The notes beneath the pieces are model-generated. The model saw only the letters and a program-made list of their open reading frames with translations. It searched no databases and was not told the DNA's origin. A stretch of DNA of 64,000 nt from contig NZ_JAAAML010000001.1 of NCBI RefSeq assembly GCF_024105735.1, positions 1 to 64,000 on the forward strand, given 5' to 3'. The translations under genes and the position numbers were made by a program. This document shows positions 25,134 through 42,223 of the stretch, one piece after another (positions within the stretch are counted from its first letter, which is position 1; each line of letters starts with the position of its first letter). The DNA is from Parahoeflea alexandrii (lineage in GTDB: Bacteria; Pseudomonadota; Alphaproteobacteria; Rhizobiales; Rhizobiaceae).

Positions 25134-25547
25134 CTACATCAACCGGCCGAGAATGTTGTTGAGCTTGGCCACTTCGCTTTCTCCGAGCAAGCTGCAGATC
25201 GCCTCGTCCTGGCTCTGGACGACGCCGCGGACTTGCGCCATCCGCTTGCGCCCCAGGTCGGTGAGCATCAGGTTGACCTGCCGCTGATCGGTCTTGCCGG
25301 CCTGGCGGTGAACGAGCCCCTCCATGACCATGCGGTCGACCATCTTGGTCAGCGTCGGCGGGTTCATCAGCACGATCCTGGCGAGTTCCCCCATGGTCTG
25401 GCTCGGCTCAGCGTCCAGCGTCTCGAGCACGCGCCAGACCTCCACCTGCACACCATGTTCCTTCAGCGCAGCCGTCAGCGACTGGTGCACGGCCCGGTGC
25501 GCAGCCGCCAGCGTATAGGAGATATAGGAGTCGATCGGGTTCTTCAT
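25134..25547 (-). CDS. MarR-family transcriptional regulator
   Basis: 137-aa winged-helix regulator. The DNA-binding part around residues 50-85 reads MGELARIVLMNPPTLTKMVDRMVMEGLVHRQ, followed by the wing RQVNLMLTDLGRK. Divergent from the AmiC-like gene of the amide cassette and separated by about 100 bases with A/T-rich imperfect palindromes, so it is the probable repressor of that cassette. It faces the YjbQ gene convergently, 20 bases away. The inducer may be an amide or the acid it releases, an inference from context. Confidence 0.88.
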   Translation of the reverse strand: MKNPIDSYISYTLAAAHRAVHQSLTAALKEHGVQVEVWRVLETLDAEPSQTMGELARIVLMNPPTLTKMVDRMVMEGLVHRQAGKTDQRQVNLMLTDLGRKRMAQVRGVVQSQDEAICSLLGESEVAKLNNILGRLM

Positions 25548-25581: not shown

Positions 25582-25610
25582 TTGACTTGGAAAATAATTT
25601 CAATTGCAAT
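25582..25610 (+). promoter_or_regulatory. Promoter and MarR operator candidate of the amide cassette
   Basis: TTGACT (25582-25587) and TGCAAT (25605-25610) are 17 bases apart, a good spacing for a sigma-70 promoter. An imperfect inverted repeat GAAA-ATAA-TTTC lies in the spacer at 25590-25601, a natural place for a repressor. A promoter here makes the ATG at 25651 the better start for the downstream gene, since 25609 would be inside the -10 element. Confidence 0.45.
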
Positions 25611-25650
25611 GACAAAAATCCCTCAAGCACGGCTGATAGGGGACACGTGC

Positions 25651-26775
25651 ATGGAGTTTTCCCGGACCGCAGTGGCATTTCCGGCAGAGTTGAACGACCT
25701 TCGCGACTGGGCTTCGGTAAGCTCGGCGGGCTTTTATCGCGTCGCGCTGCTGATCCCGATGTGCGGTTCGGCCGGGATCTGGGCGCCGTCCTGCATTTCC
25801 TCGGCTCAGTTGGCGGTTGAAGAGATCAACCGGCGCAACGGCATCGCCGGTCGCCAGGTGCAATTGATCATGATCGATTCAGCGCTTGAGGCGAAGGTTC
25901 CGGTCGAGGAGATCGTCAACGACCTGATCGAGACCAACGCCATAGACGCGATCGTCGGCATGCACATCAGCGCCATCCGCCAGCGGCTGAGCAAGGTCGT
26001 GCGGCAGCGGGTGCCCTATGTCTACACGCCGCTTTACGAAGGCGGGGAGAACACGCCCGGGATCTTTGCCATCGGCGAGACGCCGCATGAGCAACTGGGG
26101 CCGGCGATCGAAACGTTGCAACAGCAGTTCCGGCCGAAGCGCTGGGCGTTGATCGGCAATGACTATGTCTGGCCCCACACATCGCATTCCTATGCCAAGA
26201 CCAAGCTGAAGGAACTGTCCGTCGGGCTTTGCTATGAACGGTACCTGCCGTTTGGCGTGCGCAACATGTCGCACTATATCGACGAGATTGCCCATTCCGG
26301 TGCGGAGGCGCTGCTGATCTCGCTTGTCGGCCAGGACGCAGTGACCTTCAACCGGGCATTCGGGGCGGCGGGACTGGATGGCAAGATGATCCGGCTGTCA
26401 TGCTGCATCGAGGAGAATGGCCTGCTCGCCTGCGGCGACCGCAACCTCAAGCGGTTCTTCTCATCTGCGAGCTATTTCGGGTCGCTTAGAACCGAGGGCA
26501 ACTGCGCCTTCAAGGAAAGCTATTATGGTTTGCACGGCGACAAGGCCCCGGTGCTCAATGTGATCGGGCAGTCGACCTATGAGGGTGTTCACTATCTGTC
26601 GGCGTTGATGGACGACAAATCTGGCGATTGGCGAGAGCGTAATATGCTTTCGGGGTCGGCTTTCCGCTATCGAAGCGTGAAGCGTGCTTTCTCTCTGAAA
26701 CGGCCGGTAGCACGCGCCCCGATTTATCTTGCTCGCGCTGACGGAATCATGTTCGAGGTGATAAAGCAAATATAA
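25651..26775 (+). CDS. AmiC-like ligand-binding protein without signal peptide
   Basis: 374 aa of the Peripla_BP_6 fold related to AmiC/UrtA amide-binding proteins: RVALLIPMCGSAGIWAPSC, SAQLAVEEINRRNGIAGRQV, YTPLYEGGENTPGIFAIGETP, ALIGNDYVWPHTS. The chosen ATG has AGGGGA eight bases upstream. No signal peptide or membrane anchor precedes the domain, so it should stay in the cytoplasm, as the P. aeruginosa amide sensor AmiC does. No AmiR-like partner is seen in the window; the MarR protein is the only regulator next to it. An unusual receptor with a missed signal is the alternative. Confidence 0.75.
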   Translation: MEFSRTAVAFPAELNDLRDWASVSSAGFYRVALLIPMCGSAGIWAPSCISSAQLAVEEINRRNGIAGRQVQLIMIDSALEAKVPVEEIVNDLIETNAIDAIVGMHISAIRQRLSKVVRQRVPYVYTPLYEGGENTPGIFAIGETPHEQLGPAIETLQQQFRPKRWALIGNDYVWPHTSHSYAKTKLKELSVGLCYERYLPFGVRNMSHYIDEIAHSGAEALLISLVGQDAVTFNRAFGAAGLDGKMIRLSCCIEENGLLACGDRNLKRFFSSASYFGSLRTEGNCAFKESYYGLHGDKAPVLNVIGQSTYEGVHYLSALMDDKSGDWRERNMLSGSAFRYRSVKRAFSLKRPVARAPIYLARADGIMFEVIKQI

Positions 26776-26893: not shown

Positions 26894-28510
26894 ATGCCTC
26901 AGGGGGATTTTGCCTTGGTCTGGTTTTTTTCGCTGCTCGCTCTTGCGCTTCTGCTGATCATCGCGATCTGGTTCCTGCAGCGCTATTATGCCAAGGCGAC
27001 ACTGGACACCGCGCTTGTCCGTACCGGACTGGGGGGCAAGCGTGTCGTCATCGATGGCGGCTGTTTCGCCTTGCCGATCCTGCACCAGATCCAGCGTGTC
27101 TCGATGGGGTCGGTGACATTTCCCGTCCATCGCAAGGGCCGTGAATCGCTGTTGACGAAGGATCAGCTGCGCGCCGATGTCGAAATGGAATTCGAGCTCC
27201 GGGTCGAGCCGACGGCGGAAGGCATCGCCACCGCCGCGCAGGTTCTGGGGATGCGGATCGCTCGCGGCGGCGACGCCATCCGCGAGGTTGTCGGCGGCGC
27301 CCTGATCAACGCCATGCAGGATGCCGCCGCCCGGCGTAACCTGGCCGACATCCACCTCGACCGTTCCGGCTACACGGCGGAAGTGACACAGGCGGTGGCC
27401 GAGCATGCCGCGCGTCTGGGACTTGCCATGGTTTCGACTTCGCTGGTCAGCGTCGATCAGAGCGATCTGAGCCAGCTCAACGAAAGCAACGCCTTCAACG
27501 CGCAAGGCATGCGGCGGCTCGCCGAGATGGTTGCCGAACAGCGCAAGGCGCGGATCAAGGTCGAAACCGAGACCGAGATCGCCATCCGCGAGAGCCGGCT
27601 GGCGCAGCACCAGAAGCAGCTGGAGCTGCAGCGCGCCGAGCAGGAAGCCGAAATCGCCCAGCAGGAACATCTCAAGCGCATGCAGTCTGAAGCCCGGGCG
27701 CGGTCGGACCAGGCCGAGGCGCAGGCCGAGTTTGCCACCGAACAGGCGCGGATCGAGAAGACGCAACGGGTCAAGGCGGCCCAGGTCGCCAATGACGAGG
27801 CGCTGCGGCGCGCGGAGATGGCGGCAGTCCTCGCACTTGAGGAAACGCGGATTGAAAACGAGGTCCAGCTCGCCAAGCGGCGGATCGAGGAAGCCTCGAC
27901 CAAGGCCGCGGAAGAAGATGCGCGTGCACAGGTGCTGCTCGCAGCCGAACGAGTGCAGGTGCAGAAGGAGCGCGCCATCGTCGAGCGCGAGCAGGAGATC
28001 TCCAATCTCAGGCAGAAGAAGGATCTCGCCCTCGAAGACGCGCGCGTCCAGAGCGATGTGGGCACCATGCTGGCAAAAGCGAAGGCCGAGGCCGAGGTCG
28101 CCCGGTCCCTCGCGGAAACGGAACAGCGGCGGATGGAAGCCGAGGCTGCCGGACGCCATGCCCTCAATCAGGCCGAGAATACACTCAGCGAATCCGTGAT
28201 CCGGATGCGGCTGGAGGAGCGCAAGCTCGATCGCCTGCCGGAAATCATGACCCAGATGATGAAGCCGGTCGAAAAGATCGATTCTATACGCATCAACCAG
28301 ATCAGCGGCATGGGCAGCGGTGGTGCCTCCGGCGGCGGCAACGGCGTCGACAATGCCTTCGGCGCCGCGATGGACCAGATCCTCGGAATGGCCGTGCGGC
28401 TGCCCGCGATGAAGCAGATGGGCGAGGAAATCGGGCTGGATTTCGATGCCAACCTGGCTGGCCGCACCGCCGATTACGCCCAGAGAACCAAGCAGAAAGA
28501 CAAAGACTGA
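26894..28510 (+). CDS. Flotillin/SPFH-domain membrane protein (YqiK-like)
   Basis: 538 aa from ATG 26894, with GGGGGA upstream; a TTG 48 bases earlier is less likely. One transmembrane segment lies at about residues 8-27. An SPFH/band-7 domain covers about 30-200 (VHRKGRESLLTKDQLRADVEMEF, then REVVGGALINAMQDAAA). A long alanine/glutamate/arginine-rich coiled coil runs from about 210 to 440. The C-terminus has a glycine/serine run (MGSGGASGGGNG). Such proteins form oligomeric membrane-domain scaffolds. Its place inside a transporter-amidase cassette is unexpected and suggests it organises or protects that complex, which is inference. Confidence 0.82.
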   Translation: MPQGDFALVWFFSLLALALLLIIAIWFLQRYYAKATLDTALVRTGLGGKRVVIDGGCFALPILHQIQRVSMGSVTFPVHRKGRESLLTKDQLRADVEMEFELRVEPTAEGIATAAQVLGMRIARGGDAIREVVGGALINAMQDAAARRNLADIHLDRSGYTAEVTQAVAEHAARLGLAMVSTSLVSVDQSDLSQLNESNAFNAQGMRRLAEMVAEQRKARIKVETETEIAIRESRLAQHQKQLELQRAEQEAEIAQQEHLKRMQSEARARSDQAEAQAEFATEQARIEKTQRVKAAQVANDEALRRAEMAAVLALEETRIENEVQLAKRRIEEASTKAAEEDARAQVLLAAERVQVQKERAIVEREQEISNLRQKKDLALEDARVQSDVGTMLAKAKAEAEVARSLAETEQRRMEAEAAGRHALNQAENTLSESVIRMRLEERKLDRLPEIMTQMMKPVEKIDSIRINQISGMGSGGASGGGNGVDNAFGAAMDQILGMAVRLPAMKQMGEEIGLDFDANLAGRTADYAQRTKQKDKD

Positions 28511-28567: not shown

Positions 28568-29788
28568 ATGTCGATCAACAGACGCCATTTTCTTGCCTCC
28601 GCCGCCGCTGCAACCGGCGCTATCATGCTGCCGCGCGCCGTGATGGCCGCCGATACGATCAAGCTCGGCTCGGTGCTTGATGTTTCCGGTATCTTCGACG
28701 CCTATGGCAAGCCGATGGACATGGCGATGCGGCTTGCCGTCAGCCAGATCAACGCTGCCGGCGGGTTGCTCGGCAAGCAGGTCGAGGTCGTCGGCTACGA
28801 CACCCAGTCCGACATGGCGCTCTATTCGCAATATGCCCAGCAACTGGTCCGGGAGGACAAGGTGGACGTGGTGCACGGCGGCATCCTGTCGGCTTCGCGT
28901 GAGGCGATCCGCCAGACCCTGCACAAGAACAAGACGCTCTATTTCTACAACGTGCTTTACGAAGGCGGCGTCTGCGACCGCAACATCTTCATCAACGGCG
29001 TAACTCCGGCCCAGCAGGCCGAGGCACTGGTGCCCTATGCCATGGGCAAGTCCGGCAAGAAGGTCTACATCGTCGCCGCCGACTACAATTACGGACAGAT
29101 CACCGCACGCTGGCTGCAGAAATTCGTCGCCGACAATGGCGGCGAGACGGTGGGTGTCGACTTCTTCCCGCTCGATGTCTCGGATTTCGGCTCGACCATC
29201 GCCAAGATCCAGACCGCCGGTGCGGACCTGGTTATCGCGCCGCTGGTCGGCGGGGCGCATCTGTCGTTCTTCCGTCAATGGGCGGCAGCAGGCATGAAGG
29301 ACCGGATTGCTCTGGCGTCGACCACCATGGGTGTCGGCAATGAGCACAAGGTGCTGACCGCCGAAGAGGGCAACGGCATCATGGTTGCCTATAATTACAG
29401 CCAGGAGCTCGATACGCCTGAGAACGCTGCGTTCAAGGAAGCCTGGGTTGCAGCCGGTGGTGACGCCGGCGGTATGCACGAACTGGCGGTGTCGAACTAT
29501 CACGGTGTGCTCACCTGGGCTGAAGGTGTGCGTATTGCCGGAACACTGGAGCGCGACGCGGTTGTGGAGGCACTGGAAACCGGCGTTTCCATCACAGGTC
29601 CCGGCGGCAAGGTCACGGTCGACCCGAAGACTCATCATGCCGTTCTCGATGTTCACCTGATGGAAGTCGAGAACCAGGGGATGCGCGTCGTCGAAACGCT
29701 GCCGCAACGCCAGCCGATCGACACCCAGGCTGTCTGCGATCTTGGCGCCAATCCGGACGACAACACCCAGTACGAAATCCAGATCTGA
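28568..29788 (+). CDS. ABC transporter substrate-binding protein (amide/urea type)
   Basis: 406-aa periplasmic binding protein with a twin-arginine signal (NRRHFLASAAAATGAIMLPRAVMAA). Mature-part markers DTIKLGSVLDVSGIFDAYGKPM, FYNVLYEGGVCDRNIF and AADYNYGQI are those of the UrtA/AmiC/FmdD amide and urea receptor group. A GGAAGGA site precedes ATG 28568. A small stem (CACCCG/CGGGTG, 28514-28528) lies upstream and a strong hairpin follows the gene. Together with the downstream amidase this points to an amide ligand. Confidence 0.88.
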   Translation: MSINRRHFLASAAAATGAIMLPRAVMAADTIKLGSVLDVSGIFDAYGKPMDMAMRLAVSQINAAGGLLGKQVEVVGYDTQSDMALYSQYAQQLVREDKVDVVHGGILSASREAIRQTLHKNKTLYFYNVLYEGGVCDRNIFINGVTPAQQAEALVPYAMGKSGKKVYIVAADYNYGQITARWLQKFVADNGGETVGVDFFPLDVSDFGSTIAKIQTAGADLVIAPLVGGAHLSFFRQWAAAGMKDRIALASTTMGVGNEHKVLTAEEGNGIMVAYNYSQELDTPENAAFKEAWVAAGGDAGGMHELAVSNYHGVLTWAEGVRIAGTLERDAVVEALETGVSITGPGGKVTVDPKTHHAVLDVHLMEVENQGMRVVETLPQRQPIDTQAVCDLGANPDDNTQYEIQI

Positions 29789-29867: not shown

Positions 29868-30734
29868 ATGGATCTGGTATTCGTCATCATCGTCGAAATG
29901 CTCTACGCGGTCGCCTCGCTGGTGCTGATCAGTGCGGGTCTCGCCATCGTGTTCGGCATGATGAAGATCATCAATCTGGCGCATGGCGAGTTCATGATGA
30001 TGGGCGGCTATGTGACGATCACGGCGGTCACGCTGGGCGCCAATGTCTTTGTCGCCATGCTCATCATCGCCCCGGTGGTTGTCGGCCTGATCGGGCTGGT
30101 GGTCGAGCGGCTGGTGATCCGGCATCTCTATGGCCGGCTGGTCGACACGATGCTGGCGACATGGGGATTGAGCCTGTTCTTCATCGGACTGGCGACCATG
30201 ATCTTCGGCAACACGACAACGGGAATCTCCACGCCGATTTCAGGGTTCACGGTCGGAAACTACCAGGTCAACGGCTACAACTTCTTTATCATCCTGATCG
30301 CGATCGTGTTGCTCGGGCTCATGTATGCGGTGCTCAAGGGCACACGGCTGGGGCTGATCGCGCGCGGTGCGATGCAGCTGCCGGACATGGCCGCGGCACT
30401 CGGCTACTCTCCGGAACGCATCTACATGGCGACATTCTTCTGCGGCTCGGCGCTGTCGGGGCTCGCGGGCGCGATCCTGGCGCCGCTGGTCGGCCTGGTG
30501 CCGACATCGGGCGGAGCCTACATCGCCAAGGCCTTCATCACGGTGATTGCCGGCGGTCCTTCGCTGATCACCGGATTGATGGCCAGTTCAGGTCTCTTCG
30601 GCTTCATCAGCCAGATCTTCACGTTTGCGGTCTCGCCGGTGATGGGCGAAGTGGCGCTGCTGGTGGCCGCGGTGGTGCTGCTTAGGTTGCTGCCGCAGGG
30701 TGTGACCGGCAAGTTCTTCCGGGGACGTCTGTGA
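29868..30734 (+). CDS. Branched-chain/urea-type ABC permease (LivH/UrtB-like)
   Basis: 288-aa permease from ATG 29868. MMKIINLAHGEFMMMGGYVTI near residue 25 is the LivH signature. Other family blocks are RLGLIARGAMQLPDMAAALGY and the hydrophobic C-terminus. It precedes the LivM-like permease by a TGATG overlap. With the UrtA-like receptor it should form an amide importer. Confidence 0.92.
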   Translation: MDLVFVIIVEMLYAVASLVLISAGLAIVFGMMKIINLAHGEFMMMGGYVTITAVTLGANVFVAMLIIAPVVVGLIGLVVERLVIRHLYGRLVDTMLATWGLSLFFIGLATMIFGNTTTGISTPISGFTVGNYQVNGYNFFIILIAIVLLGLMYAVLKGTRLGLIARGAMQLPDMAAALGYSPERIYMATFFCGSALSGLAGAILAPLVGLVPTSGGAYIAKAFITVIAGGPSLITGLMASSGLFGFISQIFTFAVSPVMGEVALLVAAVVLLRLLPQGVTGKFFRGRL

Positions 30735-31771
30735 TGGCTTCCTTCTGGGCAAAAGAGGTTCCGGCCACCATAATCGTCGCGGCCCTGCTGATCTGGATCA
30801 TGCCGATGATGATCGGCACCTATACGCTGACAGTGCTCCTGATCTACGGCATGCTCGGTTTCAGCCTTGGCCTGATCTGGGGCTTCGGCGGGATCCTGTG
30901 CTTCGGCCAGGCGGCGTTCTTCGGGCTCGGGGCCTACACCTATGCCATCGCCGCTATCAATATCGGCGACAGCACCATTCCCATGCTGCTTGCGGTTCTG
31001 GTCCCGGCCGCTTTCGCCGCCCTGCTCGGCGCCATGATGTTCTACGGCCGTCTGACGGACGTCTATCTCGGCGTGATCACGCTGGTAGTGACGCTGATCC
31101 TGTTCAAGTTCATCAGTTCGACCGCCGGCCCGGAATACGTGATCGGCAAGGCGCGGCTCGGCGGCTTCAACGGTATCCCCGGTTTCCAGACGCTGAATGT
31201 GCCAGGGCGGCCGAATGACTACATCTACGGCGATCCGTATTTCTATTTCTGCGCCGTGCTGCTGCTGATCGTCTATCTGCTGGTCAGCTGGCTGCTGAAA
31301 TCATCCTTCGGGCGCGTGGCTGTCGGGATTCGCGAGAACGAGGTTCGCGTGGCGCTGATGGGCTATGACGTCAGTGCGCGAAAGACCGTGCTTTTCGCGA
31401 TCGGCGCCGCGATCGCCGGGCTGGCGGGCGGGCTGTTTGCCAATTGGGGCGAGATCGTTACGCCCAATCTGTTCAGTCTCGGCCAGTCTGCCGAGATCAT
31501 CATCTGGTGCATCGTTGGTGGTCTGGGCACGCGCATCGGCCCGATCGTCGGGGCAGCCGGGCTTGCCTATCTCAAGTTCCTGCTCGGCCAGCAGAGCATG
31601 ATCGACAACACGCTCCTGACCGGCATCATTCTTGTCCTGTTCGTGCTGTTCCTGCCGAAGGGCCTCGTTCCGGCTATCGCGTCTCTCTGGCGGATCAGTT
31701 TCGGGCAACGCCGCCAGCTGCCACGGCACGGTGCGCGCCGCATTCGCAGCGGGGGCGCCAGGCATGGCTGA
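30734..31771 (+). CDS. Branched-chain/urea-type ABC permease (LivM/UrtC-like)
   Basis: 345-aa permease. The start at ATG 30734 overlaps the previous stop. GFSLGLIWGFGGILCFGQAAFFGLGAYTYA is the LivM core; the coupling loop reads GIRENEVRVALMGYDVSARK. VGGLGTRIGPIVGAAG lies near the C-terminus. The gene overlaps the following ATPase start by eight bases. Confidence 0.92.
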   Translation: MASFWAKEVPATIIVAALLIWIMPMMIGTYTLTVLLIYGMLGFSLGLIWGFGGILCFGQAAFFGLGAYTYAIAAINIGDSTIPMLLAVLVPAAFAALLGAMMFYGRLTDVYLGVITLVVTLILFKFISSTAGPEYVIGKARLGGFNGIPGFQTLNVPGRPNDYIYGDPYFYFCAVLLLIVYLLVSWLLKSSFGRVAVGIRENEVRVALMGYDVSARKTVLFAIGAAIAGLAGGLFANWGEIVTPNLFSLGQSAEIIIWCIVGGLGTRIGPIVGAAGLAYLKFLLGQQSMIDNTLLTGIILVLFVLFLPKGLVPAIASLWRISFGQRRQLPRHGARRIRSGGARHG

Positions 31772-32480
31772 AATCGTACTTGAAACGGCGGGGTTGACGA
31801 TGCGGTTTGGCGGTGTGGTCGCCACCGACAATGTCGATTTCAAATTGAGGGCCGGAGAGCTGCGCTGCCTGATCGGCCCGAACGGGGCCGGGAAGTCGAC
31901 CTTTTTCAAATGCGTCACAGGGCTGCTGACGCCCACCGGCGGCCAGGTGTTCATGCGCGGGCACGAAACCACCGGCTGGAACCCGCGCCAGGTCGCAGCC
32001 CTTGGCGTGGGCATCAAGACACAGGTGCCCAACCTGATGGACGGGCTCGATGTGCACGAGAACATCTGGATGGCGGCGCGGCGGTTCCTGCCGATGCAGG
32101 ATGCGATGCGCAAGGCGTCCGAGGTGATCGAGCGACTGGCCCTTGGTCCGATCGCGCGAACGGAACTCGGACGACTGGCGCATGGCGAGCGGCAGCGGGT
32201 CGAACTGGGTCTGGTGGTTGCCGGTGATCCCTGGCTGGTGCTGCTTGATGAACCCGCAGCCGGGATGAGCGCCGACGATGTGGAACGTATGAGCGACATC
32301 ATCCGCGAAATGACCCGCACCGCGGCGGTGGTGATCGTCGAGCACGACATGCAGTTCATCCGCTCGATCGCCAGCACCGTGACCGTGTTCCATCAGGGTG
32401 CGGTGCTGATGGAGGACCACGTCGACCGGGTCATGGCGGATCCCACGGTCCGCAACGTCTACCTGGGAAAGAAAGCCTGA
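31764..32480 (+). CDS. Branched-chain/urea-type ABC ATPase (LivG/UrtD-like)
   Basis: 238-aa nucleotide-binding subunit. Walker A is GPNGAGKST, the signature helix reads LAHGERQRVELGLVV, and Walker B is LVLLDEPAAGMSADDV. ALGVGIKTQVPNLMDGLDVHENI at the Q-loop is typical of the UrtD/LivG branch. Its stop overlaps the start of the ATPase-amidase fusion gene by one base, so the two ATPase domains should be made together. Confidence 0.92.
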   Translation: MAEIVLETAGLTMRFGGVVATDNVDFKLRAGELRCLIGPNGAGKSTFFKCVTGLLTPTGGQVFMRGHETTGWNPRQVAALGVGIKTQVPNLMDGLDVHENIWMAARRFLPMQDAMRKASEVIERLALGPIARTELGRLAHGERQRVELGLVVAGDPWLVLLDEPAAGMSADDVERMSDIIREMTRTAAVVIVEHDMQFIRSIASTVTVFHQGAVLMEDHVDRVMADPTVRNVYLGKKA

Positions 32481-34846
32481 TGATGGCCGAGGAGCGGAAG
32501 ACCTGCCTGGATATCAAGAGCCTGTCGGGAGGCTACGGCAAGGTGCCGATCCTGCACGGGATCGAGTTTTCGGTGGCGGAGAACGAGGTCGTCGGCATTC
32601 TCGGCCACAATGGCATGGGCAAGTCCACCCTGCTCAAGACCATCATGGGATTCCTGCCGGCGAGTTCGGGCACGGTCCGGTTCCACGGCGTCGAGATCAC
32701 CCGCCTGTCGCCTTATGAGCGGGCAGGGCTCGGCATCGGTTATGTGCCGCAGGGCCGCGGAATTTTCCCGCAGCTGAGTGTGCGCGACAATCTCCGTTTT
32801 GCCTGGCACGACTATTCCGGCGGCGGCGAGGAGGAAGTGATCGAAGCCGTGCTCGCCGACTTCCCGCGGCTGGCGCGGCTGCTTGACCGCATGGGCGGCG
32901 CGCTGTCGGGCGGCGAACAGCAGCTCCTGGCTTTGGCCCGAAGCCTGATGGGCGATCCGGAATTCCTGCTGCTGGACGAGCCGACGGAGGGTATCCAACC
33001 TTCGATCATCGAGGAGATGTCGGAAACCCTGTTGCGCCTGCGCGAACGGCGCGGTCTGTCGATCCTGCTGGTCGAGCAGAATTTCGACTTCATCGCCGAT
33101 CTGTCGGACCGGGTCCTGGTGCTCGAACGCGGGCGGATTGCCGGTGAACTTTCCAAGGCCGAGCTGGCCGATCAGGCGAAGGTCGACCAGTTCCTGGGTT
33201 TCGGCGCCGCGCGCTCGACGCGTGGCACTGCGACGGGAACCACGCGTGCAGGACCGGCCCCGGCGCCCAGGCCCCCGAGCCAGCAGCAAATCGCCCATCC
33301 TGCTCCCATCACCCCCCAGCCCTTGGTGACAAGCATGACAATCAAACGCCCCAGTCTTTCGCAGATGCGCGCCATGGCGAGCCGTTTCGGCATGAACCTG
33401 ACGGATACGGAACTCAGCGAGTACAGCCAGATCATGGAGCCCTACATCCAGGCCTATGACCGGCTCGACGCCATTCCCGATAATCTGCCCGAAGTGCGCT
33501 ATCCGCGCTCGCCCGGGCGGTTTCCGGATCCAACGGAAAACCCGCTCAATGCCTGGTATGTCAAGACGGAAGTGCGCGGCGCACCCGACGGACCGTTGCG
33601 CGGCAAGCGCATCGCACTCAAGGACACGATCTGCCTGGCCGGCGTGCCGATGATGAACGGATCGTCGATCATGGAGGGCTATACGCCCGAGATCGACGCC
33701 ACCATCGTCACGAGGATGCTCGATGCCGGCGCCATCATTGCCGGAAAGGCGCATTGCGAGAACTTCTGCTTGTCCGGTGCCTCCCACACCAATGCCAAGG
33801 GGCCGGTGCACAATCCCTGGAAGCGTGGCTACATGGCCAACGGCTCTTCCAGCGGATCGGCAGCACTTGTCGCGACGGGTGAGGTGGATATGGCGATCGC
33901 GGGCGACCAGGGCGGCTCGATCCGACTGCCGTCCTCGGCCTGCGGCGTCTATGGCATGAAGCCGACCCATGGATTGGTGCCCTATACAGGTGTCATGCCG
34001 GTGGAGATGACCATCGATCATGTCGGTCCGGTCACGTCGACGGTTGCCGACAATGCGCTTCTGCTCGAGGTGCTGGCTGGCGAGGACGGGCTTGATCCGC
34101 GCCAGTACAATCCAAAGGTTTACCGTTACACAGAAGCCCTTGGCCGTGGCGCGCAGGGACTGCGGATCGGTATCCTGAAGGAAGGGTTTCGCCGGCCCGA
34201 GAGCGAGGCGGATGTCGACGAAAAAGTGCTGGCCGCCGCCAACCGTTTCCGGCAACTGGGCGCCATGGTCGAGGAGATTTCCGTGCCTGAGCACACTCTT
34301 GCGGTTGATTGCTGGACGGCGATCACCGTGGAAGGCATGCAGGACCAGATGATGCACGGCAACACCGGCGGCACCAATTACCGCGGCCTGTTCCTGCCAT
34401 CGATGATCGACCAGATGTCGCAATGGCGCAACCGTGCCGACGAGCTCAGCCATTCCCTGAAAACCTGCATGTTCCTCGGCGAGCATTTCCAGACCCAGTA
34501 CCGGGGCCGGTTCTATGGCAAGGCCCAGAACCTGATGCGCCGCGTCAACGAGAAATATGCGGAGGCACTCAAACGCTTCGACGTGCTGCTGATGCCGACC
34601 ATGCCGATGAAGCCGCAGGAAATTCCGCCTGCGGACTGTTCAATCAGCCTTTACGTTCAACGGGCCTTCGAGATGATCGGCAATACCGCTCCTTTCAATG
34701 GCGGTCTGCCGGCAATGAGTGTCCCTTGTGGCTTGAGTGAAGGCTTGCCAATCGGCATGATGCTGGTGGGACCGAGTTTCGGCGAGATGAAGATTTACCA
34801 GGCGGCGCACGCCTTCGAACAGAGCGAAGACTGGCGCAGCATGTGA
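32480..34846 (+). CDS. Fused LivF-type ABC ATPase and amidase
   Basis: 788 aa in one uninterrupted frame. Residues 1-243 are a complete LivF/UrtE ATPase: Walker [10 protein letters not shown] (42-50), signature [15 protein letters not shown] (from 142), Walker [11 protein letters not shown] (162-171), LLVEQNF (197-203). Residues about 245-286 form an Ala/Pro/Gly/Thr/Gln-rich linker. Residues 287-788 are a full-length amidase-signature enzyme of the enantioselective/wide-spectrum amidase type, with its N-terminal helical part, Lys381 (ALKDTI), the serine cluster GSSSGS (455-460) and the probable nucleophile Ser480 ([10 protein letters not shown]). It would hydrolyse amides to acid and ammonia at the cytoplasmic face of the importer. 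An in-frame ATG at 33335 (residue 286) could also yield free amidase. Single-base sequencing error is the main alternative to a real fusion. Confidence 0.88.
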
Positions 34847-34856
34847 GGGGGAAACG

Positions 34857-36626
34857 ATGTCGATTCTGAACGAGAGCCTTGCAGGAAAACTTTCCGAACT
34901 GGGCCGGACCACCAGCCCACAGTCGGCGGAATCGACGGCGCCGGAGAACGATCTCTCCTATGTTCGCGGCAGCACCCATCTGCCTTTGCGCTACATGACC
35001 ATTCCGCAATTGCTGCGCGAGGCCGTCTCGCTGTTCGGCCCGCGTGAGGCGATCATATGCCCGCAGCAGGATATTCGCCTCAGCTACTACGAGTTTGACC
35101 GCGCAGTTGACGAACTGGCGTCCGGCTTTCTCGCTATGGGGCTTGAGAAAGGTGACCGCATCGGTATCTGGTCGCCCAATCGCTACGAGTGGGTGCTGAC
35201 CCAGTTCGCCACGGCACGGATCGGCCTGGTGCTGGTCAACATCAACCCGGCCTACCGGCTGTCGGAGCTGGAATACGCGCTCAACAAGGTCGGCTGCAAG
35301 GCGCTGGTGACAGCGCGTGCGTTCAAGACCTCCAACTATCTCGAGATGATCACGACGCTGGCGCCCGAGATCGCCGATTGCGAACCCGGCCGGTTGCGGG
35401 CTGAAAGGCTGCCGCAGCTGCGCGCGGTGATCGTGCTTGGTGAGGTCAGCGAACCGGGCCTGTTTTCGTTTGACCGGGTGAGGACGCTTGGCGGTCCGGC
35501 GCAGCAGTTGCGGCTGCCGACGATCGAGGCGGAGCTCGGTCCGGATGACGCCATCAACATCCAGTTTACCTCTGGCACGACGGGCCACCCCAAGGGCGCG
35601 ACGCTGTCGCACTACAACATCGTCAACAATGCCCGCTACGTCACCGACCGCATTGCGCTGACGGAAAGCGACCGGCTGTGCATTCCGGTGCCGCTCTACC
35701 ATTGCTTCGGCATGGTCATGGGTGTGCTGGGCGCCGTTAGCAAGGGTGCCGCCATGGTGTTTCCGGGCGAGGCCTTCGATCCGGTGACGACGTTGTCCGC
35801 GCTCGAAGCCGAACGCTGCACCGCCGTCTATGGCGTGCCTACCATGTTTGTCGCCATGCTCGAGGAGCTCGACCGTTCACCGCGCAACCTGGCGCAGCTG
35901 CGGACGGGGATCATGGCCGGGGCGCCGTGTCCGGTGGAAGTGATGCACCGGGTGATGGAGCGGATGCACATGCGCGAGGTGACGATCTGCTACGGCATGA
36001 CCGAGACATCGCCGGTATCGTTCCAGAGTTTTACCGACGACCCGGTCGACAAGCGCTGCGAAACCGTCGGCCGCATCCATCCGCATCTCGAGGTCAAGAT
36101 CGTCAATGATGACGGCCGGATCGTGCCGGTCGGCGTTCGCGGCGAACTCTGCACCCGTGGCTATTCGGTGATGAAGGGTTACTGGGACGACCAGGAGAAG
36201 ACCGTCGAGGCAATCCGGGACGGATGGATGCACACCGGCGATCTGGCCGTGATCGACGAGCAGGGCTTCTGCGCCATCGTCGGGAGGGTCAAGGACATGA
36301 TCATTCGCGGCGGCGAGAATGTCTATCCGCGCGAAATCGAGGAGTTTCTCTTCCGCCATCCGAAGATCTCGGAGGTTCAGGTGTTCGGAGTGCCGGACGA
36401 CAAATATGGCGAGGAGGTCTGCGCCTGGGTGGTAGCCAAGCCGGGCGCCAGCCTTGACGGGGAAGAACTCAGGGCCTTCTGCAACGGCCAGATCGCGCAT
36501 TACAAGATCCCCAGATATATCCGGGTTGTCGATGCCCTGCCGATGACGATTACCGGCAAGCCGCAGAAGTTCATCATGCGCGAGCAGATGCAGGAAATGC
36601 TGAAGCAGGATGGCGTCCGAGGCTGA
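34857..36626 (+). CDS. Acyl-CoA synthetase (AMP-forming)
   Basis: 589-aa ANL-superfamily ligase. The P-loop is [11 protein letters not shown] near residue 240; YGMTETSP and the hinge [16 protein letters not shown] follow. The catalytic C-terminal lysine lies in TITGKPQK. The layout fits medium- or short-chain fatty acyl- or aryl-CoA ligases. It follows the amidase gene by ten bases with a GGGGGAAA site, so it should activate the carboxylic acid released by the amidase for catabolism. The acid itself is not identifiable. Confidence 0.9.
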
Positions 36627-39287: not shown

Positions 39288-39466
39288 AAGCAGGGATCAC
39301 CGCCTGTGGCGGTGTCTGTGCATTGTCATCAAAAATTTACCAAGACGAATCCTGACCGTCACATCCCGCCGTTACCTGTGCCCTTGTCTTTGGGCCTGCA
39401 CGAGGGACCCCGGGCGAGATCATGAGATTTACAATCACGCACAGATGCGAAGTTGAGGAACGGAAC

Positions 39467-41134
39467 ATGACCCACAGCCGCACGCTTAAAGGCGCCATGA
39501 TGATTGGTGCATATCTCCTTGCAACGACAATGCTCACGATGCCCGGGCAGGCTTTGGCCGAGGATCGCCCAGAGATTACTGTTGCAGTCCAGCAGATCGT
39601 CAATGCCGGTGCACTCGATGTGCTGCGCGAGCAGTCCAACGTCGGAGCCCGGGTGTTCTACTCGATCTTCGAAACCCTGATCGACTACGACCGCCAGAAC
39701 GCTGACCTGCCGCAGAAGCCGGGTCTTGCCACCGAATGGAAGCGCATCGACGACAAGACCGTCGAGTTGAAGCTGCGCCCCGGCGTCAAGTTCCACAACG
39801 GCGATGTCATGACGGCAGACGATGTCGTCTTCACCTTCTCCAAGGAGCGCTTCGGTCTTCTCGACGAGCAGGACAGTGCGCGCAAGGATGGCAAGACACT
39901 GTTCACCGCGAGCGCCAGTGCCGCGGTTGGCGGCAAGGTCCCGCCAGCCGAAGTCGCAGCCGTGGCAAAGCGTGCCTGGCCCAATCTCGACCGCGTTGAA
40001 AAGGTCGACGACATGACCGTCCGCTTTGTCTCGACGGTTGCCGATCCGACGCTCGAAGGCCGCATTTCCCGCTACGGCGCGGAAATCCTCTCCAAGCGCG
40101 CCTATGAGGAGGCCGAGTCCTGGCTCGCCTTCGCCCAGAAGCCGGTCGGCACCGGGCCCTACAAGGTTGTTGAATTCAAGCCCGACAACATTCTCGTTCT
40201 CGAAGCCCATGACGATTACTGGGGTGGCACGCCGCCGGTCAAGACCCTGCGCTTTGCCGTGGTTCCCGAAGTCGCAAGCCGCGTCAACGGCCTTCTCTCC
40301 GGCGAATATGATTTCATCACCGATCTTCCGCCGGACCAGATCAACACGGTTGAATCCAATGCTGCGTTCGAAGTCGTCGGCGGTCCGATCACCAACCACC
40401 GCCTGATGGTGTTCGACAAGAACAACGGCCCGATGCAGAACGCCAAGATCCGCCAGGCAATGACCCATGCGATCGACCGGGAGACCATCGTCGAGACCCT
40501 CTGGGACGGCCGCACATCGGTCCCAGCCGGCCTGCAGTGGTCTTACTACGGTGACATGTTCCTCTCCGACTGGACCGTGCCTGAATACAACGTGGAACTG
40601 GCAAAGAAGCTGGTCCAGGAATCGGGATATAATGGCGAGGAAATCACCTTCCGCGTTCTCAACAACTACTACACCAACCAGGTCTCCACCGCGCAGATCA
40701 ATGCCGAATCCTTCCGCCAGATCGGTCTCAACGTGAAGATCGAGATGAAGGAAAACTGGCAGCAGATCTTCGACAAGGAGAGCGGCCCGCGCATGGTTCG
40801 CGACTGGTCGAACTCGGCTCCTTTCCCGGATCCGGTTTCCTCGATCGTCAACCAGCATTGCCAGAACGGCCAGCAGCAGCAGGTCGGCGAATGGACCAAT
40901 GAAGAGTTCAACGCGCTTTGCATCAAGCTCGAAACCTCGACCGATCTTGAAGAGCGCCGTGCTTCCTTCCGCCGGATGCTCGAAATCGCCGAGCGCGAAG
41001 ATCCTGCCTACACTGTTCTGCACCAGAGCGCGATCTTCTTCGGCAAACGCAAGGACATCGAGTGGAACTGGTCCGGGCTGCAGTCGATGGACTTCCGGGC
41101 GGCCAACTTCCAGGTTGTTGCGCCGGGCAACTAA
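39467..41134 (+). CDS. ABC transporter substrate-binding protein (family 5, peptide/nickel type)
   Basis: 555 aa from ATG 39467, with GAGG nine bases upstream; ATG 39422 is less likely. A signal peptide runs to about residue 31 (MPGQALA). Family 5 blocks are YDRQNADLPQKPGLATEWKR, LRPGVKFHNGDVMTADDVVFTF and NAKIRQAMTHAIDRETIV. It binds oligopeptides, sugars or other bulky solutes. A very strong terminator follows, then the ATPases and permeases. The neighbouring phosphodiesterase hints at a phosphorylated ligand, a weak inference. Confidence 0.88.
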   Translation: MTHSRTLKGAMMIGAYLLATTMLTMPGQALAEDRPEITVAVQQIVNAGALDVLREQSNVGARVFYSIFETLIDYDRQNADLPQKPGLATEWKRIDDKTVELKLRPGVKFHNGDVMTADDVVFTFSKERFGLLDEQDSARKDGKTLFTASASAAVGGKVPPAEVAAVAKRAWPNLDRVEKVDDMTVRFVSTVADPTLEGRISRYGAEILSKRAYEEAESWLAFAQKPVGTGPYKVVEFKPDNILVLEAHDDYWGGTPPVKTLRFAVVPEVASRVNGLLSGEYDFITDLPPDQINTVESNAAFEVVGGPITNHRLMVFDKNNGPMQNAKIRQAMTHAIDRETIVETLWDGRTSVPAGLQWSYYGDMFLSDWTVPEYNVELAKKLVQESGYNGEEITFRVLNNYYTNQVSTAQINAESFRQIGLNVKIEMKENWQQIFDKESGPRMVRDWSNSAPFPDPVSSIVNQHCQNGQQQQVGEWTNEEFNALCIKLETSTDLEERRASFRRMLEIAEREDPAYTVLHQSAIFFGKRKDIEWNWSGLQSMDFRAANFQVVAPGN

Positions 41135-41140
41135 AGCCAA

Positions 41141-41176
41141 GGGCCGGGGCGCGAACTGCGCGCCCCGGCCCTTTTT
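41141..41176 (+). terminator. Strong intrinsic terminator after peptide-type receptor
   Basis: GGGCCGGGGCGCG (41141-41153) and CGCGCCCCGGCCC (41159-41171) form a perfect 13-bp stem with a five-base loop followed by five T residues. It lies within the operon between receptor and ATPase genes and should limit read-through. Confidence 0.9.
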
Positions 41177-41197
41177 GTTGCAACGGAGAACCGGCCC

Positions 41198-42223
41198 ATG
41201 GAAACGCTTCTTTCAATCAAGGACCTGACGATCGATTTCGACCAGGGAAAGCGCTTCGTCAGGGCGCTGCACGGTGTCAGCCTGAATGTTGCCAGGGGCG
41301 AGGTTCTGGGTGTTGTCGGCGAATCCGGTTGCGGCAAGTCGATCACCTGGCTGGCGGCGCTGGGGCTGCTCGGCAGCAAGGCACGCATCTCCGGCTCCGT
41401 CCGGCTCAACGGGCAGGAGATAGCCGGAGCTCCGGAAAACGATCTTGCGGGCTTACGTGGCGGTCGCATCGCCATGATCTTCCAGGATCCATCGAGTTCC
41501 CTCAATCCGGTGCACCGCATCGGACGGCAGATCGCTGAAGCGCTGAAGCTGCACCGGGGCATGACCGGAGCCTCGGCCAATGCGGAGGCGGCGCGTCTTC
41601 TCGACCGGGTCGGCATCGCCAACGCCACCCGGCGTCTGCGCGAATATCCGCACGAAATGTCGGGCGGCATGAACCAGCGCATCATGATTGCCATGGCGCT
41701 TGCGGGTGAGCCCGACCTGCTGATCGCCGATGAGCCGACCACGGCGCTTGACGCCACCATCCAGGCGCAGATCCTTGATCTGCTGACTGAATTGCGTCGC
41801 GATAGCGGGATGGCGCTAGTCCTGATTTCCCATGATTTGGGCGTCGTTGCCGACATGAGCGACCGGGTGGCGGTGATGTATGGCGGCCGTGTGATTGAGG
41901 AAGCCGACACCGGTTCGCTGTTTGACAGCCCGGCGCATCCCTACACCAGGGGGCTCATCGCGGCGCTTCCGGACATTGACGGTCCGCGCCGGCGTCTCGA
42001 ATCCATTCCCGGAACCGTGCCGGCTCCCGACCAGCTGCCTCCGGGCTGCAGCTTTGCACCCCGCTGCGCAATCGCCAGCAAGATCTGCGATGCCAGGGTG
42101 CCGGCATTCCTGCCCTATGGCGAGAAGCAAAGCCATTTTGCCGCCTGCATCAAATGCAGGGGAGGCGCACCGACCGAAACGGCGTCGATGCCCGGCAACA
42201 AGAGCGCGCTGGTGCCGGCATGA
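41198..42223 (+). CDS. Dipeptide-type ABC ATPase (DppD-like)
   Basis: 341-aa ATPase. Walker A is GESGCGKSI, with I where T is usual. The signature region reads MSGGMNQRIMIAMALA, and Walker B is LLIADEPTTALDATIQAQ. The C-terminal oligopeptide-transporter domain carries a cysteine motif (CSFAPRCAIASKICD) that often binds an Fe-S cluster in this family. ATPase genes come before the permease genes here, the reverse of the common order. Its stop overlaps the next start. Confidence 0.9.
   Translation: METLLSIKDLTIDFDQGKRFVRALHGVSLNVARGEVLGVVGESGCGKSITWLAALGLLGSKARISGSVRLNGQEIAGAPENDLAGLRGGRIAMIFQDPSSSLNPVHRIGRQIAEALKLHRGMTGASANAEAARLLDRVGIANATRRLREYPHEMSGGMNQRIMIAMALAGEPDLLIADEPTTALDATIQAQILDLLTELRRDSGMALVLISHDLGVVADMSDRVAVMYGGRVIEEADTGSLFDSPAHPYTRGLIAALPDIDGPRRRLESIPGTVPAPDQLPPGCSFAPRCAIASKICDARVPAFLPYGEKQSHFAACIKCRGGAPTETASMPGNKSALVPA

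Follow-up and report, generated by a model that had tools for sequence, protein, structure and literature searches.

A 64,000-nucleotide stretch of the genome of the marine bacterium Parahoeflea alexandrii (RefSeq assembly GCF_024105735.1, contig NZ_JAAAML010000001.1, positions 1 to 64,000; hereafter the window) contains, at 32480..34846 on the forward strand, a gene in which an ATP-binding cassette (ABC) importer ATPase is fused to an amidase. The original prediction, made from the DNA letters and translated reading frames, had described a stop-free frame of 788 codons, and this was confirmed, the first stop in the frame from 32480 being at 34844. The encoded protein begins with a UrtE/LivF-like nucleotide-binding domain (residues 1-243, 32480..33208), continues through a linker rich in Ala, Pro, Ser and Thr (residues 244-285, 33209..33334) and ends in an amidase with a putative internal ATG start of its own (residues 286-788, 33335..34846), all on the forward strand. 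Pfam searches matched ABC_tran (PF00005) to residues 25-169 (110.7 bits, cut-off 25) and Amidase (PF01425) to residues 364-770 (299.5 bits, cut-off 27). The NCBIfam profile NF005565 (PRK07235 amidase) spanned residues 286-787, corresponding to profile positions 1-505 of 506 (766.4 bits, cut-off 545); the UrtE profile TIGR03410 spanned residues 10-239 but scored below its curated cut-off (262.9 against 285.8 bits).

Across 49 aligned fused representatives, the Walker A (G42, N44, G45, M46, G47 and K48), signature (L142-S143-G144-G145-E146-Q147) and Walker B (L165-D166-E167) residues of the ATPase were invariant, in agreement with their earlier description as intact. K381, S456 and S480 of the amidase, which we take to be the catalytic lysine and the two catalytic serines, were likewise invariant; Lys381 and Ser480 had been placed correctly, and what had been called a serine cluster at 455-460 reads GSSSGS. 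Foldseek searches matched the amidase half to the amidase of Rhodococcus sp. N-771 (3a1k and 3a1i; 46% identity, target template modelling score 0.86), with a gap-free alignment to 3a1k in the catalytic stretch, and the ATPase half to 1ji0 (36% identity); no chain holding both domains was described among the 50 matches listed. An AlphaFold2 model computed on the 49-row alignment (mean predicted local distance difference test score, pLDDT, 79.7) predicted two folded domains joined by a disordered linker, with pLDDT below 50 for residues 240-283 and for four shorter stretches of the amidase part.

Conservation of the linker had been proposed as a check on the fusion and was not seen: among 115 distinct fused sequences its length ranged from 27 to 103 residues and its sequence was hypervariable. 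The ratio of nonsynonymous to synonymous differences (pN/pS), calculated over 21 close pairs of which some share a sequence, was 0.45 in the linker compared with 0.08 in the ABC domain and 0.05 in the amidase, and the linker thus behaves like translated, weakly constrained protein. With this range of lengths, a hypervariable sequence and predicted disorder, it would keep the enzyme near the membrane without positioning it. Of the tethering proposed in the original prediction, the conserved ATPase-amidase fusion in an importer operon therefore stood, but not the location of the amidase at the exit of the channel.

The two-domain architecture was sought in other genomes and found as a single frame in the same 115 distinct sequences (window included; identical amidase sequences merged), which were mostly alphaproteobacterial. 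Collected loci were classed by a script into 131 fused frames, 45 separate frames and 7 frames that run past the locus edge and count as neither; loci without a strong amidase (L025-L038) and L241-L244 from the phylum sample were left out. The fused frames comprised 48 from a search of sampled genomes (window included), 80 from a scan of named genomes and 3 from plasmids or a repeat, some genomes occurring in both the sampled and the named sets. All 80 loci kept in the named-genome scan were fused; that scan retains the top matches to the full-length query and is thereby biased towards fused genes. Full-length fused relatives were present in the samples of relatives, family, order and class, and record titles placed the fused gene in more than two dozen genera, including Hoeflea, Nitratireductor, Sulfitobacter, Ruegeria, Phaeobacter, Shimia and Sneathiella. 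Among the 45 separate frames (repeats included), 29 are preceded by an independent ABC frame that ends no more than 600 bases upstream, and three others sit behind a fused gene. A second amidase of the same family directly follows the fused gene in L065 and L068 (genomes G558 and G640); no CoA ligase gene was found in the stretches fetched for these (L230 and L239).

A wide spread outside the alphaproteobacteria was considered and rejected on the basis of 398 genomes sampled at phylum level (E up to 1e-150), in which only the window's own gene was full-length and stop-free among the matches listed. Stops were found between or within the two parts in G1453, G1468 and G647, and in G846 (L087) an amidase of 61% identity lies within a 1072-residue open frame that reaches the locus edge. 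Outside the alphaproteobacteria, an Arenicellales record (L174) carries the fused gene. Another record, titled Halieaceae (L122), closely copies the Rhodobacteraceae version, with a linker almost identical to those of L119 and L114; the contig has probably been mis-binned.

A phylogenetic analysis was carried out on 81 amidases chosen as representatives at 88% identity (49 fused and 32 separate; matches shorter than 440 residues and repeats omitted). One change between the fused and separate states suffices on this tree, with a branch support of 85 by a quick method (not starred), and several independent fusion events were accordingly rejected. Six long branches were flagged, all belonging to separate rows. 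Homologues that always keep separate genes, named at the outset as an outcome that would speak against the fusion, were not what we found, the two states lying on the two sides of one branch. The fusion is real, old and conserved, and joins an importer ATPase to an intact amidase within an importer operon. That the join is an artefact of sequencing or assembly has a practically negligible probability and is refuted by this conservation: the same single frame occurs in 115 distinct sequences, and two complete Sulfitobacter plasmids carry the fusion as single annotated coding sequences. These two copies are named just 'amidase', so that the fusion is easily overlooked.

The amidase half opens with M-T-I-K-R-P at residue 286, where the stand-alone family profile begins, and codon 286 was ATG in 113 of the 115 distinct fused genes, GTG in one and ATC in one. 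In the window, the ATG at 33335 follows a Shine-Dalgarno (SD)-like site within the linker, GGTGA (33325..33329, forward strand), which is conserved including the wobble position −10. A match of at least four bases to AAGGAGGTG was present before codon 286 in 95/115 genes, compared with 8.1% of 4112 linker control codons. Duplex energies were calculated with an assumed anti-SD tail; the mean was −6.8 kcal/mol at codon 286 and −1.9 kcal/mol for linker codons, while other ATGs gave −1.9 kcal/mol in the ABC domain and −3.3 kcal/mol in the amidase domain. Linkers form a low background in this respect, since the means over all codons of the ABC and amidase domains were −3.3 and −3.1 kcal/mol. The 49 fused representatives gave −6.5 kcal/mol against −7.8 kcal/mol for the starts of the 32 separate amidases; as a yardstick, five other genes of the operon (52-96 starts each) ranged from −4.4 (perm1, 96 starts) to −9.7 kcal/mol (acyl-coenzyme A (CoA) ligase, 83 starts).

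The strongest evidence for a putative internal start is found at synonymous positions. The wobble position −10 was G in 98 of the 115 genes, the two bases preceding it varying freely, and pairwise identity was 0.75 there compared with 0.26-0.33 at linker third positions from −60 to −13. Where the codon at −4 is fourfold degenerate it ended in G in 59/64 cases against 1300/4041 in linkers (21/24 against 536/1714 for the representatives), and valine at −3 was encoded by GTG in 60/64 cases against 61/175. The SD-like sequence was clade-specific, being GGTGA in 21 of 32 members of one clade and GGAGG, GGGAG or AGGAGG in 7 of 10 members of another. Predicted mRNA structure was weakest around the site (−4.2 at the codon and −2.2 at +12, with a mean of −8.7 elsewhere between −150 and +234), and lysine at codon 4 of the amidase was AAA in 24/28 cases against 269/798. 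In synonymous resampling carried out per gene, 44 of 49 were more stable than their own mean. These comparisons demonstrate selection at the nucleotide level on a candidate internal in-frame start, with both the start codon and the presumptive ribosome-binding site conserved. They suggest that the gene would yield an ABC-amidase of approximately 85 kDa together with a free amidase of approximately 55 kDa and 503 residues. A small amidase product would thus be expected even with a real fusion. Both the start at codon 286 and the flotillin gene accompanying the fusion had been overlooked in the original prediction.

Gene order was compared in 82 loci, made up of the 80 named loci and the two Sulfitobacter plasmids, and was the same throughout: an AmiC/UrtA-like protein, flotillin, a substrate-binding protein, two permeases, a LivG-like ATPase, the fusion and a CoA ligase. 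The partner ATPase gene (UrtD/LivG-like, 31764..32480), which adjoins the fusion in 82/82 loci, ends in a stop codon overlapped by the fusion start as TGATG. Upstream of it lie the genes for the UrtC/LivM-like (30731..31771) and UrtB/LivH-like (29868..30734) permeases, each in 81/82 loci, and for a substrate-binding protein of the urea/amide type (28568..29788; Peripla_BP_6; 79/82 loci) with a twin-arginine translocation (Tat)-like signal that matched Pfam TAT_signal under the cut-off. The acyl-CoA ligase (AMP-binding) gene follows the fusion at 34857..36626 (80/82 loci); these assignments, like those of the partner ATPase and permeases, are from Pfam and NCBIfam. A second UrtA/AmiC-like protein of the periplasmic-binding fold (25582..26775; 71/82 loci) is perhaps an amide sensor. 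These genes are on the forward strand; a divergent gene on the reverse strand (25140..25544) encodes a MarR-family regulator, with 52.6% identity to the MarR beside a Sulfitobacter copy and MarR-type NCBIfam matches below the cut-offs. No other UrtE-type ATPase was found in the window operon or in the two annotated Sulfitobacter operons, so that the ATPase of the fusion is the one the importer needs. Elsewhere in the window, 39422-42223 encodes an SBP_bac_5 binding protein and an oligo_HPY ATPase of a dipeptide-type ABC importer.

The flotillin-like SPFH protein is encoded at 26894..28510 on the forward strand and matched Flot (PF15975, 112.2 bits, cut-off 27) and Band_7 (PF01145, 52.7 bits, cut-off 23.6) as well as Flotillin-1 in 9bq2 (E 1.3e-6); it has a single N-terminal hydrophobic stretch, a 19-mer at residues 7-25. 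Its gene was present in 76/82 loci, including partial genes at contig ends (L141, L154 and L162), and a match was absent at six. L096, L111, L163, L167 and L168 end before its place, and L104 (703-804) retains only a 34-residue flotillin end, located on the other strand close to where the contig stops; either faulty assembly or a genuine break or rearrangement may account for this. In wider stretches, flotillin was found in 20/20 fused loci (one, L238, repeating L164) and 0/24 separate loci (22 different, as L198/L216 and L200/L213 are the same stretches), and a CoA ligase in 17/20 fused loci and 1/24 separate loci, the latter at 32% identity. Because the fusion is a single event on the tree, this co-occurrence represents one coincidence kept in many genomes rather than many independent ones. 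Seventy flotillin frames were found in relatives, and the alignment made from them has 33 rows, with L227, L155, L235 and others omitted. The frames taken for L155 and L227 contain a stop, which may stem from the coordinates chosen or from a gene that is really broken.

The binding proteins are similar to those of urea and AmiC type and have UrtA- and AmiC-type relatives in the PDB. Their scores fell below the cut-offs of the UrtA profiles TIGR03407 (237.4 against 492.75 bits) and TIGR03669 (340.2 against 494.8 bits), and urea itself is thus unsupported as the cargo. The nearest solved relatives of the amidase half are of an amidase, one entry containing benzamide. Genes for nitrile hydratase were found near two of the 24 separate-gene loci, on plasmids of Agrobacterium (L197) and Tistrella (L198), the former also near an aldoxime dehydratase gene. 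The pathway that fits best would be hydrolysis of an organic amide to an acid followed by activation of the acid by the CoA ligase.

We consider it probable that the fused gene has two products and belongs to an operon for the uptake and use of an organic amide. Translation from 32480 would give the ABC-amidase, whose ATPase half would pair with the LivG-like subunit on the importer, leaving the amidase hanging from the importer-bound ATPase by a flexible tether. Since the importer would have to use the fusion and the frame stays open up to 34844, any production of the importer should bring the tethered product with it. Translation from the ATG at 33335, served by the SD-like site in the linker, would give free amidase. 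Free and tethered amidases would most likely assemble through the subunit contacts of the amidase itself: if amidases of this type are dimers, as we presume, free subunits could complete the tethered ones, giving an importer its whole enzyme with no cross-link to a second importer. The released acid would be activated by the CoA ligase encoded next, and the flotillin gene suggests an organised membrane patch within which the complex might perhaps lie. We infer, then, that both products are made and assemble together, that an amide is the cargo and that tethering helps to capture it.

Several points weigh against this reading. Twenty of the 115 internal sites match three bases only, 10 of the 49 representatives are weaker than −4 kcal/mol, and clade A is weak (4/7 at or under −4). 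Only 7/49 genes reach P<0.05 alone in synonymous resampling, other, shallower dips in mRNA structure exist (for example, −4.8 at +216), and Fisher tests ignore relatedness, which inflates their values. A search for 16S rRNA in the window's own assembly returned no match, hence the assumed anti-SD tail. In Pseudosulfitobacter koreensis (L135) codon 286 is ATC with the GGTGA site retained. The dimeric state of the amidase is presumed, and a literature search found nothing on its subunit structure. A tether of such length need not speed the hydrolysis of a small diffusing molecule. The link to the substrate is thin, because nitrile hydratase was not found within the stretch fetched at 22 of the 24 separate-gene loci. 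As an observation in its own right, L135 is a naturally occurring variant that lacks the internal start and so offers a test case.

The weak sites of some members and the lack of an ATG in L135 would also fit an explanation with the fusion as sole product, in which the GGTGA/GGAGG linker site is a translational pause giving the ATPase time to fold ahead of the amidase, or a remnant of the formerly separate gene, rather than a working start; the first amidase residues, M-T-I/V-K/R-R-P, are moreover conserved as protein. A remnant should have drifted, as the other linker third positions have, yet position −10 remains conserved and the clades use different SD-like sequences, and a pause requires neither a correctly spaced start codon nor the AAA codon and weak structure behind it. 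We regard this explanation as rather unlikely. It is also quite unlikely that the fusion serves merely to co-produce ATPase and amidase, with proteases cutting the linker, the parts working apart and tethering having no role. The linker is indeed predicted to be disordered and is weakly constrained, and relatives with the same importer manage on separate genes. However, a stop codon would suffice for such co-production, yet the 49 fused rows of the tree are not interrupted by any of the 32 separate ones (the 7 cut-off frames being unjudged), and only fused loci were found to have the flotillin gene. A more elaborate possibility is that the operon builds a membrane nanocompartment, in which a closed flotillin cage on the inner membrane face surrounds the importer, the ABC-amidase anchors the enzyme inside, the internally started amidase fills the complex and the amide is hydrolysed before leaking. 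This would account for the joint presence of fusion, flotillin and CoA ligase to one side of a single branch, and we consider it rather improbable as stated. In comparison with mammalian flotillins, which form a closed membrane cage that could isolate reactions (PMC11260169), and with HflK/C cages, the SPFH protein of the operon matches flotillin-1 and might, hypothetically, form a cage or hold the importer.

Several known systems come close to parts of this proposed dual-product fusion. Its amidase aligns with the Rhodococcus sp. N-771 amidase and PRK07235 from the first residues, with the lysine and both serines conserved; in contrast to the Rhodococcus enzyme, which stands alone, it is joined to an importer ATPase. 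Importers of the urea (UrtABCDE) and branched-chain amino acid (LivFGHMJ) types have the same binding protein, two permeases and two ATPases, in the Urt order, whereas the five subunits here fall below the curated Urt cut-offs and the second ATPase carries an enzyme. The Fmd importer system for short-chain amides is another of this group. Separate-gene operons, such as those on the Agrobacterium (L197), Tistrella (L198) and Pleomorphomonas (L200) plasmids, have the identical order of binding protein, two permeases, two ATPases and amidase, but neither the fusion nor, in 24 loci, flotillin. Among genes with internal starts, CcmM58/CcmM35 are two products of one gene. The internal start of YscQ (SctQ) gives a C-terminal short form required to assemble the long form (PMC4295842), and HrcQ is one gene giving the full-length protein and its C-terminal part (PMC8553256). 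SctQ and CcmM have no relation to the protein described here, whose shorter product would be a metabolic enzyme complete in itself. The searches made in the open PubMed Central literature, which mostly excludes subscription papers, turned up no account of a fusion between an importer ATPase and an amidase. Fusions of ABC subunits are of a known kind, as are genes with internal starts; the combination of an internal start with an ABC-enzyme fusion would be new.

Direct hand-over of cargo from an importer to an enzyme is hard to test with a transient link; the one described here is covalent. The putative internal start looks as if made for setting how much of the enzyme is tethered and how much is free, and the fusion and its separate-gene sisters form a natural experiment. 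The regular company of the flotillin gene provides a concrete candidate client for bacterial flotillins.

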